A stretch of DNA of 43,995 nt from NCBI GenBank assembly GCA_013538855.1, contig JABXJS010000233.1:1-43995 (forward strand), given 5' to 3'. Positions 26,561-31,481 of the stretch are shown here, one piece after another. A model generated the notes under the pieces. It searched no databases and had not been told where the DNA came from. It was given only the letters and a program-made list of their open reading frames with translations. The first letter of the stretch is position 1. Every line of letters begins with the position of its first letter. This stretch comes from Herpetosiphonaceae bacterium (GTDB lineage: Bacteria; Chloroflexota; Chloroflexia; Chloroflexales; Herpetosiphonaceae). Both the position numbers and the translations under genes were made by a program.

Positions 26561-27741
26561 GCACCGAGCGCCTCTACTGGCTCGACGCCTACCTGCGCGA
26601 GTGGTCGGCGCAGGTGGTGGATCGCCGCGCCGACGGCCACGAGATCGCCCTGGATCGCTCGGCCTTCTACCCCGAGGGCGGCGGCCAGCCTGCCGACCAC
26701 GGCTCCATCAACGGCGTCGCCGTGCTCGATGTCCAGAGCGACGAGGACACCGACCGCGTCTGGCACCGCCTGGCCGCGCCGCTCGCCGACGATGCTGTGA
26801 GCTGTGTCCTCGACTGGGAGCGCCGCTTCGACCATATGCAGCAGCACCACGGCCAGCACCTGCTCTCGGCGGCCTTCGAGGAGCTGTGCCAGGCTCGCAC
26901 CACCGCCTTTCACCTTGGCGCAGACAGCACCACCATCGACCTGGCCATCGACAGCGACGCGCTCACGCCCGAGCGGCTCGCCGCCGTCGAGGAGCTGACC
27001 AACAGCGTCATCTGGGCCGATCACCCGATTCTGGCGCGCTTTGTCACGCCTGCGGAGCTGGCCAGCATTCGCCTGCGCAAGCCGCCCACCGTCAGCGGGC
27101 CGGTGCGCGTGGTCTCGGTGGCCGACTTCGACCACTCGGCCTGCGGCGGCACGCACCCGCGCTCCACGGGCGGGGTGGGCATGCTGCACATCCGCCGCAC
27201 CGAGCGCCGCGGCACCGAGACGCGCGTTGAGTTTATCTGTGGCGGGCGGGCGATGCGCGACCTGCGCTGGAAGAACGCCACCCTGGCCCGGCTGGCCGCC
27301 GACTTCAGCGTCGCCGTCGATGAGATCGAGGCCGCCTTCGAGCGCCTGCGCACCGCCGAGGCCACGGCGCGGCGCAGCCTGGAGCACGCCACCAAGCGCC
27401 TGCTCCAGGTCGAGGCCGCCGAGCTGCTGGCGGCGGCGGACGGCGGCGTGGTCGTGCAGCTCTGGCGCGACCGCGAGCTAGACGCCGTGCGGGCGCTGGC
27501 CGGCAACATCGCGGCGCTCGGCGGCGTGGCGCTGTTTGGACTGGCCGGCGCAAAGGCCCAGCTCGTCTTTGCCAGCGACGGCCAGCAGCTGCACTGCGGC
27601 AACCTGCTGCGAGAGATCGTCAGCGCCTACGGTGGCCGCGGCGGCGGCGCGCCCACCCAAGCCCAGGGCGGCATTCCCAGCGCCGACGATCTGCCCGCAG
27701 CGCTGGAGCAGGCCGCCGCCCAGGTGCGCGCCAGCGTCTAG
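26557..27741 (+). CDS. AlaX-type alanyl-tRNA editing protein with DHHA1 domain
   Basis: A 394-residue stand-alone homologue of the editing half of alanyl-tRNA synthetase. It hydrolyses mischarged Ser- or Gly-tRNA(Ala). An N-terminal beta-barrel carries FYPEGGGQPADHG. The editing core has zinc ligands in HHGQHLLSAAFE (HxxxH) and CGGTHPRSTGG (CxxxH). A helical linker and a DHHA1-like domain (about 310-390) ending with the Gly-rich GGRGGGAPTQAQGG complete it. It corresponds to the long AlaX class. Very GC-rich codon use gives several long shadow frames on the other strand. Confidence 0.92.
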   Translation: MSTERLYWLDAYLREWSAQVVDRRADGHEIALDRSAFYPEGGGQPADHGSINGVAVLDVQSDEDTDRVWHRLAAPLADDAVSCVLDWERRFDHMQQHHGQHLLSAAFEELCQARTTAFHLGADSTTIDLAIDSDALTPERLAAVEELTNSVIWADHPILARFVTPAELASIRLRKPPTVSGPVRVVSVADFDHSACGGTHPRSTGGVGMLHIRRTERRGTETRVEFICGGRAMRDLRWKNATLARLAADFSVAVDEIEAAFERLRTAEATARRSLEHATKRLLQVEAAELLAAADGGVVVQLWRDRELDAVRALAGNIAALGGVALFGLAGAKAQLVFASDGQQLHCGNLLREIVSAYGGRGGGAPTQAQGGIPSADDLPAALEQAAAQVRASV

Positions 27742-27860
27742 CCACGCCAGCGGATGCGCAGCGCGCTCGTAGTGCCGCATATCGCGAGCGTGCCACAACC
27801 CTAGCCAGACGGCAGCAGCTCCTGCTCGCCCCAGCACGCGACGCGATCCATTCGTGCCAC

Positions 27861-27963
27861 GCGAGCGCACCGCTCACGCCATCGCACGCTGGCTGTGGGG
27901 CTGCGCCTGCCTGCCCTGAGCATACAGCGCGCGGGCTTGCACAGCCCCAGCGCGTGCTGGCCG
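27861..27963 (+). repeat. 103-bp direct repeat, copy 1
   Basis: It matches 28013-28115 at 101 of 103 positions, with no indels; copies are offset by 152 bases. It contains a GGGGCTG/CAGCCCC internal inverted pairing. The near identity implies a recent duplication or gene conversion. Confidence 0.9.
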
Positions 27964-28012
27964 CAGCGAACGAGCCAGCCATGCGCTCCTTTTTCTTACC
28001 AACTCCACAGAA

Positions 28013-28115
28013 GCGAGCGCACCGCTCACGCTATCGCACGCTGGCTGTGGGGCTGCGCCTGCCTGCCCCGAGCATACAGCGCGCGGGCTTGCACAGCCCC
28101 AGCGCGTGCTGGCCG
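28013..28115 (+). repeat. 103-bp direct repeat, copy 2
   Basis: Second copy of the repeat at 27861-27963, with two substitutions. The 49 bases between the copies are unique. Confidence 0.9.
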
Positions 28116-28594
28116 AGGAAGCCGGACATAGCACAAGCTAACGTTTTACACAAAACCACACGTAGCTCAAGCAGCGCAGCAATAACACAGGCAGCACTGA
28201 CCTTACCAAAAGCGCATAGGCCATAGCTAGAGCAGATGCAGGAACAACGTTATCTGTGTACGTGTAAAATCTTTATTTAAGTTCGCGGCTAGATCGCCGC
28301 ACGCAGCGCTACACCTAAGCGCTACAAAAATGGCGGTGAAATGGTGCGGCGGTGGACTGTTGCAGCGGCTCAGCAAACAGAGTCTGCGCTGTTGCTCGAT
28401 CAACCGCTCAAGGGGGCAACTTGGCACTGCGGGTGGATCGGCATTGCAGCCAGTGGCGCGGTGACGTCGCAGCCACACGCTGCCGTGATCGGCCTGACAC
28501 TATCCAAGGCGCAGAGCTTGCGCGGCCAGCGAACAGCGCAACCAGTAAGCCTAGCCCAAAGCGCCATCGGTACTCAAGCAAACCACAGCCATGC

Positions 28595-29354
28595 GCGTTG
28601 ACCCACAGCCGTGCAGCCGCAGCTCAACCAAGCCCACACAGCTACGCGGCACGCCAAATCTGCCCAGCGACGCCGCACCAGCCGAGCGCATTGACCGCGC
28701 TCATGCCAGCGCACGCTGCTACGCCGCGCCAGCTTACTACGTTGACCGCGCTCACGCCAGCGCACGCTGCTACGCGCTGCGGCGAATCTGCCCAGCGACC
28801 ACGCGCCAGTCCAGCGCGTTGACCGCGCCGTGCAGCCACTGACCACGCTCATGCGATCTGCTACGCGGCGCGCCGAAGCTGCGCCGTGGCGATGCGCCAG
28901 CCGAGCAGGCTGAGCAGGCGCGCTGACCCAGCCGTGCAGCCGCAGCTCAACCAAGCCCACACAGCTACGCGGCACGCCGAATCTGCCCAGCGACCACGCG
29001 CCAGCTTACTACGTTGACCGCGCCCACGCCAGCGCGTGCAGCCATGCGGCGCGGCAAATCTGCACCAGTGACGCCGCGCCAGCCGAGGTGTTGACCGCGC
29101 CGTGCAGCCACTGACCACGCTCGTGCGATCTGCTACGCGGCGCGCCGAAGCTGTGCAGCGGCCACGCGCCAGTCCAGCGCGTTGACCACGCCGTACAATC
29201 GCAGCGCACGCCTGTGCACGCTGCTACGCAGCGCGGCGAATCTACCCAGCGACGCCGCGCCAGCCGAGCGCGTTGACCGCGCTCATGCCAGCGCACGCTG
29301 CTACGCGCTGCGGCAAACTCACCGTACAATCGCAGCCCACGCCAGCGCGTGCTG
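28595..29354 (-). repeat. Degenerate array of copies of the YndJ-like gene's 3' end
   Basis: On the plus strand a module of roughly 75-105 bases recurs: GCTACG, then a variant of GCGGCGAATCTGCCCAGCGA, then GCGCCAG, then TTGACCGCG. The TTGACC or CTGACC anchor occurs at 28599, 28691, 28742, 28819, 28923, 29014, 29091, 29182 and 29273. The same module, in the same orientation, forms the last codons and stop of the gene at 29355-30323 (anchor 29428). Longer blocks also recur, for example around 28611 and 28934 (offset 323) and around 28831 and 29103 (offset 272). Read on the minus strand, several copies keep residues such as AVNALGWRG and AGQIRRA. Confidence 0.75.
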
Positions 29355-30323
29355 CTACGTGGCGCGGCGAATCTGCGCCGTGGCGACGCGCCAGCCGAGC
29401 AGGCTGAGCAGGCTGAAGCCGAGCGCGTTGACCCAGCCGTGGACGCGCAGCATGCGCTGGATGGTCAGCCACGCGGAGTACGTGTTGTTGACGCGGGCCA
29501 GCGCGTAGAGCGTGGCGAAGGCCATGGCCACCACAAGGCAAAGCGCGGCAGCCAGCAGCAGCCAGCGCGCCAGCGGAGCGCGCACGGCGGTCGCGGCGGA
29601 GCGCAGCAGCAGCAGGGCGATGATCACCATATCGGCGGCGAAGATGATCGCCGCCGCGCCCTCCAGCAGATGCCAGAATGTGATCCCAAGCGCGATAAGC
29701 GCAGGGCAGACCATCGCGATCCAGGTGGCCGCCTGATAGAGACGCGGCAGCCGCCCGCGTGTTGTGCACAGCAGCCGCCCGAGCATGCCCGTGCCAACAA
29801 GGCCAGCCAGGCTAATAAAGTGGAAGTGCACCGCCGTGAGCGCCACAATCGCCGGCGAGAAGCCCATGGGCTTGAGGCCGAGGCGGCTAATCACCAGCCA
29901 CACGCCGCCGATGATTAAGTAGGCCAGCCCAGCATCGACGCACAGCTCCTCCAGCTGGTGCCAGTCGCCAGCCAGCAAGCGCAGCAGCGCCAGCAGCGCC
30001 AGCCCGGCCGTGAGCAGCAGCCAGGGCGTGCTGAGCAGCGCCGCCAGCCAGCCGGAAGGCAGCAGCAGGCCGATCAGCGCCAGCAGCGCCGCCAGCGGCT
30101 GCGCCACGACCAGCAGCGCAAAGAGCCGCTGCGCCAGCGCAAGCTGCTCGGCGGGCTGAGCGAGCGGCAGCGCCAGCGGCATCGTCACCAGCAGCGCCAG
30201 CAAAATCAGCAGATTAAACGTGTCGATGTGCAAAGCGCCAACGAGGTTGAGCAGCCACACCAGCAGCCACGCGAGCGTGCCGCCGCCTAGACTCCAGCGA
30301 TTAACCACAGGCCAGAGGCTCAT
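29355..30323 (-). CDS. YndJ-like multi-pass membrane protein
   Basis: A 322-residue membrane protein with about nine helices. The segment SPAIVALTAVHFHFISLAG matches the core of the YndJ family (Bacillus YndJ and relatives), whose function is unknown; the His pair HFH could bind metal or heme. Its C-terminal end reads WVNALGFSLLSLLGWRV, and this stretch of DNA is copied in degenerate form downstream. The start at 30323 is chosen because AAGGAG lies eight bases upstream; a longer frame to 30413 runs into the tandem repeat and is rejected. The promoter must lie within or beyond that repeat array. Confidence 0.75.
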   Translation of the reverse strand: MSLWPVVNRWSLGGGTLAWLLVWLLNLVGALHIDTFNLLILLALLVTMPLALPLAQPAEQLALAQRLFALLVVAQPLAALLALIGLLLPSGWLAALLSTPWLLLTAGLALLALLRLLAGDWHQLEELCVDAGLAYLIIGGVWLVISRLGLKPMGFSPAIVALTAVHFHFISLAGLVGTGMLGRLLCTTRGRLPRLYQAATWIAMVCPALIALGITFWHLLEGAAAIIFAADMVIIALLLLRSAATAVRAPLARWLLLAAALCLVVAMAFATLYALARVNNTYSAWLTIQRMLRVHGWVNALGFSLLSLLGWRVATAQIRRAT

Positions 30324-30339
30324 AATGCAAGCTCCTTGT

Positions 30340-30698
30340 GCGCCAGCGGCGCGTGTGGCGCTACGGTCTAGAGCAGCAACACAGCGAGCGCTGCCCATGC
30401 GCGCAGCAGGCAAGGCGGGTAGAGCAGATTTGCGACAGCTGCGCGTGTGACGCTACGCTCTAGAGCAGCGACACAGCGAGCGCTGCCCATGCGCGCAGCA
30501 GGCAAGGCGAGTAGACCAGATTTGCGCCAGCGGCGTGTGGCGCTACGCTCTAGAGCGGCGACACAGCGAGCGCTGCCCATGCGCGCAGCAGGCAAGGCGA
30601 GTAGAGCAGATTTGCGCCAGCTGTGTGTGGCGCTACGCTCTAGAGCGGCGACACAGCGAGCGCTGCCCATGCGCGCAGCAGGCAAGGTGGGTAGAGCA
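30340..30698 (-). repeat. Four-copy 90-bp tandem repeat upstream of the YndJ-like gene
   Basis: The unit anchor CGCTACGCTCTAGAGC (first copy CGCTACGGTCTAGAGC) begins at 30359, 30451, 30541 and 30631, giving periods of 92, 90 and 90 bases. Units 2 and 3 differ at four positions. Each holds the palindrome GCTCTAGAGC (GGTCTAGAGC in copy 1). On the minus strand the frame stays open through the array and encodes a 30-residue repeat containing MGSARCVAALERSAT, but without a ribosome binding site. No unique spacers are present, so it is not a CRISPR array. The rest of 30324-30803 shows no gene. Confidence 0.9.
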
Positions 30699-30803
30699 CA
30701 ACAACGGTGGCAGCGCCTGCGCGCCGCCACCGCGCTTCCGAGATGAGACTATGCGAGCAGCCAGCAGCGTGCGCCAGCCAGCACAGCGGGGCAGCCGCGC
30801 CCG

Positions 30804-31481
30804 CTAAAGATTGGGCAGCTCCCAGGCGATCGGCGGCTTGCCAGCGTCGGCGAGCGCAGCGTTGATCTGCGAGAACGGGCGCGAGCCGAAGAAGCCGTGC
30901 TTGGCCGAGAGCGGCGAGGGATGCACCGACTGCACAATCGTATGGCGCGACTCATCGATCAAGCTGGCCTTCTTCTGGGCGTAGGCCCCCCAGAGCACAA
31001 AGACGACCGGATCGGCCTTGGCGTTGACCTGACTGATCACCGCGTCGGTGAAGCGCTCCCAGCCCTTGTTTTTATGCGAGTTCGGCTGGTGTGCGCGCAC
31101 CGTCAGCACGGCGTTGAGCAGCAGGATGCCCTGCTCGGCCCAGGGCACCAAGTAGCCATTGTTGGGAATGGGGCAGCCGATGTCGCTGTGCAGCTCCTTG
31201 AAGATATTGCGCAGCGACGGCGGCGGCTTAACGCCAGGGCGCACCGAGAAGCACAGGCCGTGGGCCTGCCCGTCGTCGTGGTAGGGGTCCTGGCCCAGCA
31301 AGAGCACGTTGGTCTGCTCCAGGCTGGTGTAGCGCAGGGCGTTAAACACATCGTTGGCGGGCGGGAACACGGTGTGCTCGGCGCGCTCGGCGGCGACAAA
31401 CGCAGACAGCTCCTGCCAGTAGGGCTGGCTGGTCTGCTCGGCGAGGTGCGGCTGCCAATTCTCCGGAATGGTCAAGGTCAT
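30804..31481 (-). CDS. ung: Uracil-DNA glycosylase, family 1
   Basis: A 225-residue base-excision repair enzyme that removes uracil from DNA. Motif A is LLGQDPYHDDGQAHGLCFSV (catalytic Asp in GQDPYH), the uracil pocket has PPSLRNIFKELHSDIG and LLLNAVLTVR, and the minor-groove loop is HPSPLSAKHGFFG (catalytic His). The length and all motifs are standard. ATG with GGAGG upstream. It is last of a three-gene minus-strand unit, 15 bases after the methyltransferase-like gene. Confidence 0.97.
   Translation of the reverse strand: MTLTIPENWQPHLAEQTSQPYWQELSAFVAAERAEHTVFPPANDVFNALRYTSLEQTNVLLLGQDPYHDDGQAHGLCFSVRPGVKPPPSLRNIFKELHSDIGCPIPNNGYLVPWAEQGILLLNAVLTVRAHQPNSHKNKGWERFTDAVISQVNAKADPVVFVLWGAYAQKKASLIDESRHTIVQSVHPSPLSAKHGFFGSRPFSQINAALADAGKPPIAWELPNL

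Follow-up and report, generated by a model that had tools for sequence, protein, structure and literature searches.

The DNA directly downstream of a yndJ gene in this Herpetosiphonaceae genome is very probably a non-coding, satellite-like array that arose from the 3′ end of the neighboring gene by local tandem duplication, presumably through slippage or unequal exchange. It is a large case of local repeat growth, an ordinary process that is widespread in this genome, and represents no new element or system. The window (the whole stretch of DNA analysed, 43,995 nucleotides) is one entire contig of a 6.3-Mb draft genome in 285 contigs. The gene and its array comprise the following features:

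29355–30323, minus strand: intact gene for a YndJ-family membrane protein of 322 amino acids (PF14158 match and open reading frame list).
29352–29451, minus strand: the repeated tail sequence within yndJ itself, encoding approximately HGWVNALGFSLLSLLGWRVATAQIRRAT and the stop (local alignments; conserved HG..NA...GW in homologues).
28590–29351, minus strand: array of nine degenerate non-coding modules from the yndJ 3′ end (repeat scan, self-BLAST, local alignment and shuffles).
28587–28641, minus strand: incomplete first copy, at the array margin away from yndJ (alignment 28587–28623, score 36).
28858–28946, minus strand: module nearest to yndJ in sequence (81% with gaps, 91% over ungapped columns).
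28590–29058, unstranded: first block of a higher-order duplication, with its partner at 28915–29317 (self-BLAST, 72.6% over 470 columns).

The layout is essentially that of the original prediction. With yndJ on the minus strand the array is on its 3′ side, directly downstream, and in place of the "about nine" modules foreseen we located nine anchors (28642, 28717, 28767, 28858, 28963, 29038, 29129, 29220 and 29298) along with the gene's own at 29352. Direct repeats occupy 28590–29451 and both of the predicted offsets were recovered, 323 for a 124-nt family and 272 for a 161-nt family; the self-BLAST block pair listed above likewise bears out the predicted rearrangement in blocks. The remaining self-BLAST pairs within the region are at 62–79%, and the pairwise identity between modules ranges from 58 to 91%. 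That the modules share the last codons and stop of the gene is evident from non-overlapping local alignments of the yndJ 3′ end against the region, which scored 111, 73, 65, 62, 54, 44, 44 and 36; the top score in 500 dinucleotide shuffles was 43 and the second 31, seven of the tail matches exceeding all of the shuffles and the eighth all but one. As in a long-unit bacterial satellite, the copies are non-coding and follow each other head to tail, in direct orientation, at a single locus. A CRISPR array was considered and rejected, the modules being degenerate, spaced at variable intervals of 50–105 bp and without a constant repeat.

The direction of the copying can be read from the protein and from a deletion. 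The yndJ product matches PF14158 with 194.5 bits against a curated cut-off of 27 (E 2.7e-57, residues 39–303 of 322), and a search of NCBIfam with the same protein gave no match. The modules repeat the codons for HGWVNALGF...LLGWR, a C-terminal sequence that homologues across the phylum conserve. By eye, in an alignment of 18 homologues (there were 19 other YndJ matches in all, L021 being left out as below the cut-off), the HG is found in 18/18, the following N in 17/18 and the W of LLGWR in 14/18. Moreover, the YndJ C-terminus is of the same length class as in these homologues and has no extension. To judge from these sequences, the YndJ family had its conserved C-terminal end before the array existed, and the modules derive from the yndJ tail.

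Seven of the nine modules have lost the same 24 bp between two AGCCGAGC repeats, and yndJ itself is undeleted. As for the remaining two, module 28858 still has the segment that the others have lost, with a different deletion of 11 bp, and module 29298 is without the segment. Since the gene has both the undeleted form and the C-terminus conserved in its homologues, yndJ is the source and not the product; and since the 24-bp deletion is common to so many modules, most of them arose from an already altered copy via later block duplications. Thus the duplication of the gene's tail that had been proposed as the origin is upheld, with the ancestral form in yndJ and the modules confined to this locus, whereas simple repeated copying from the gene is, in view of the derived deletion, too simple an account.

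These same observations bear on the other origin that had been suggested, namely that the C-terminus of yndJ is an inserted member of a family of small MITE- or REP-like mobile sequences. Similar-sized direct copies side by side and the many intergenic repeats of this genome are what such a family would produce, but the stretch that is shared encodes the conserved YndJ end, the protein has no extension relative to its homologues, and the polarity of the deletion already refutes this reading, which we therefore regard as highly improbable. Furthermore, no copies turned up elsewhere. A DNA search of the genome placed the modules at this locus only (40 of 234 candidates scored), a pattern search allowing ≤3 mismatches found six places, all on the contig of the window, and the core pattern had 0 matches in the species collection, which may not contain the record of this genome itself. 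The dispersal to many unrelated loci that was to have undone the tail reading was thus not found, and the earlier view that the array is neither a CRISPR nor a standard insertion sequence holds. An insertion sequence or a MITE or REP family was rejected because of this lack of copies at unrelated loci. Downstream of the homologous genes we found copies of the 3′ end in 0/18 cases, within the 630–1470 bases examined.

Contrary to the expectation that partial reading frames had been kept, there is no sign of coding constraint in the array. Mismatches between the modules and yndJ are spread evenly over the three codon positions (24/125, 20/125 and 20/127, or 0.19, 0.16 and 0.16), the 11-bp deletion of the best copy (28858) shifts the frame, a codon-usage gene caller found no gene in 27742–29354, and 0/8 open reading frames of the gap matched Pfam. 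Nor is there an excess of RNA structure in a 500-nt stretch (z −0.69; 25/100 shuffles fold equally well), Rfam matches in the window are limited to three tRNAs, and a scan of 27700–30850 for promoter-like or terminator-like sites found none. The modules are most simply read as non-functional, and no function is needed to account for the array. In silent gene-cassette arrays of the pilS or vls kind, promoterless partial copies lie beside one expressed gene, and the present locus, with its promoterless 3′-end copies in one orientation beside a single intact gene, could be taken for such a store, whose truncated copies recombine with the gene and vary its C-terminus. This is very unlikely, given copies that are frame-shifted or deleted, mismatches that are flat over codon positions, a YndJ C-terminus that is standard and conserved, and the fact that most arrays of this genome do not touch genes.

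The array is part of a larger block, which contains two other sets of repeats:

27742–30803, unstranded: 3.06-kb block of repeats, array, yndJ and further repeats between an AlaX-like and a uracil-DNA glycosylase gene (tblastn).
27861–28115, unstranded: two 103-bp direct repeats, 98% identical, with 49 bp of unrelated sequence between them (repeat scan and self-BLAST).
30339–30698, unstranded: about 4 × 90 bp of direct repeats on the 5′ side of yndJ (TRF period 90, 4.0 copies, 93%).

In G003, which belongs to the same family and a different genus, the AlaX-like and uracil-DNA glycosylase genes are convergent neighbors only ~140 bp apart, with no yndJ between them (tblastn on L160 and the sequence of the short gap). 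A gain of yndJ followed by repeat growth fits this comparison best; alternatively, G003 may have lost the gene. Within the order, yndJ was found in 1/82 genomes, this one, and in the phylum sample YndJ occurs in 18/400, this genome counted; a protein search of the species collection confirmed no YndJ relatives. The array is probably younger than the arrival of yndJ, a timing that comes from G003 and hence from a different genus. The repeats at 30339–30698, between the start of yndJ and the uracil-DNA glycosylase gene, are private and unrelated to the tail array, and the pair at 27861–28115, like L041:9443–9684, is not a plain tandem duplication. The sequence between this pair and the array (28131–28589) has a lower G+C content (56%), is private in the sample and carries no recognised genes.

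To place the locus in a more global context, we examined 1,257,035 bases of the genome, the window included. They hold 86 mostly non-coding local direct-repeat arrays, which make up 15% of the intergenic bases; this count includes a tRNA pair as well as two CRISPR-like arrays, and, like the densities, gap counts and gene-tail counts below, it is approximate, as it rests on our home-made and unbenchmarked gene caller. The yndJ array is the largest of the sample after one of the CRISPR-like arrays. The two CRISPR-like arrays (L039:11602–13626 and L037:16679–17403) have an exact 37-nt repeat with a period of ~72–79, and a Cas6 gene (L037:14216–15007) is on the same stretch as the second. The first 645-kb part of the sample has 7.3 arrays per 100 kb. 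Two genomes of the same order come close to this density, G013 (which we take to be Roseiflexus sp. RS-1) with 7.0 and G028 (presumably Chloroflexus aurantiacus) with 6.0, followed by G016 with 4.0, G404 with 1.0 and G007, a member of the same family that we assume to be Herpetosiphon aurantiacus, with 0.6. G001 had no arrays, nor did G020, for which the sample was smaller than planned, and G009 had one in only 20 kb, again a smaller sample than planned.

Among intergenic gaps of ≥200 bp, arrays are present in 13/37 that are convergent, 34/136 that are tandem and 6/77 that are divergent (convergent versus divergent, p = 7e-4). Such a bias might be taken to favor a spacer function for the array, which could, for instance, buffer transcription ends or supercoils where the AlaX-like and yndJ genes converge. 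However, it is also expected if copies that disturb a promoter are removed by selection, and promoter avoidance accounts for the same convergent bias; the RNA structure and terminator results above give a spacer no support, and the arrays have little sequence in common, 35/47 of those in the first 645-kb part being without a similar place elsewhere in the sample. A functional spacer therefore seems quite unlikely.

Is the copying of gene tails a more general phenomenon? We asked how often the last, first or middle 100 nt of a gene recur in the adjoining non-coding DNA. The last 100 nt recur downstream in 8/642 genes, against 0/642 for the middle-downstream control (p = 0.008). On the other side, the first 100 nt recur upstream in 3/686, the middle in 1/686 (a marginal case) and the last in 1/686, and the first recur downstream in 0/642. 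The excess of 3′-tail over 5′-head copies (8/642 versus 3/686) is not significant (p = 0.13), and the other genomes taken together have 0/345 last-downstream cases, a borderline difference from the 8/642 here (p = 0.056). The clear second case is a class-III aminotransferase gene (L033:12607–12882) with its last 106 nt duplicated downstream at 93%. The tail cases of L037 and L060 lie between adjacent genes whose 5′ ends are also copied, the match of L107 is just 16 nt, and at L110:6551–9661 an 80-nt match (82.5%) to the 3′ tail is upstream of its gene and not, as is usual, downstream.

These data allow a scheme for the growth of the array. In at least one event, slippage or unequal exchange would have produced copies of ~100 bp that comprise the last codons and the stop; one copy would then have lost 24 bp between the two AGCCGAGC repeats, and the shortened form would have multiplied in blocks at offsets of ~91, 272 and 323 bp, the copies decaying neutrally, without selection. 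The gene would tolerate this growth, its frame being completed by a copy that stays intact. A like process would be at work throughout the genome, mainly where no promoter is disturbed, as in convergent gaps and in the DNA that follows a stop. The growth was not a simple outward addition, since the most gene-like module (28858) is not adjacent to yndJ. Some of the other arrays consist of near-identical copies with non-homologous spacers between them, which plain slippage does not directly give, so that template switching may be needed for some arrays. A bolder idea would give this lineage a process, linked to the ends of genes, that repeatedly copies their last tens of codons into the downstream DNA, perhaps through template switching where transcription terminates or converges. 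If so, non-coding arrays would be supplied steadily and new C-termini now and then; we think this unlikely, and prefer local tandem duplication of the yndJ tail.

Inverted copies of one 97-bp sequence lie at the two ends of the contig (1–97 and 43899–43995). This sequence has at least 40 matches in the genome, with 40 of 207 candidates scored. Many of them are ≤5 bases from a contig start, and the sequence probably belongs to the edge of an insertion sequence at which the assembly broke. Could the array, too, be an artefact of a draft in 285 contigs, among them contigs that end in a common 94–97-bp repeat? This is hardly credible, since module pairs that are only 58–91% alike are too divergent for mis-joining, and comparable arrays are present in the single-contig genomes G013 and G028.

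We conclude that the end of a neighboring gene can act as the seed of a bacterial intergenic satellite, with a polarity that follows from protein conservation and a common deletion, and that arrays of this general kind, rarer between divergent genes, are a sizeable part of the sampled intergenic DNA. Their recognition should be of use in annotation, where they give rise to spurious open reading frames, and they are a natural record of local duplication. In the open-licence literature we found neither this locus nor a survey of gene-tail satellites in the Chloroflexota; the accessible portions of a 2014 survey of close repeats (PMC4060949) and a 2010 paper on small variable segments (PMC2884548) give general context.

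Silent gene cassettes resemble the yndJ array in their promoterless, partial copies beside one gene, but the array differs from them in having no kept frame, no coding constraint and no variable C-terminus. The bacterial satellites described in the accessible part of PMC6749651 are mostly unique and unrelated to each other, some with units >30 nt, and are scattered through the genome. Chloroflexus aurantiacus is at the top of its list of satellite-rich bacteria, with 76 satellites (14.4 per Mb) and a last-column value of 42.1, read here as the percentage with long repeats. That part contains no discussion of gene tails as satellite seeds. In the Borg genomes (PMC9879509, accessible portion), tandem repeats also form independent local arrays in intergenic regions, and a repeat region may start inside the end of an open reading frame; Borg units are A-rich, ~20 nt long and perfectly repeated, whereas the yndJ array is GC-rich, degenerate and built of long units. 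It is thus with the satellites of PMC6749651, as far as the accessible text describes them, that the yndJ array shares the property of being a locus-private, long-unit array, and it differs from them in having a unit taken from the adjacent gene's tail and copies that are old (62–79%).
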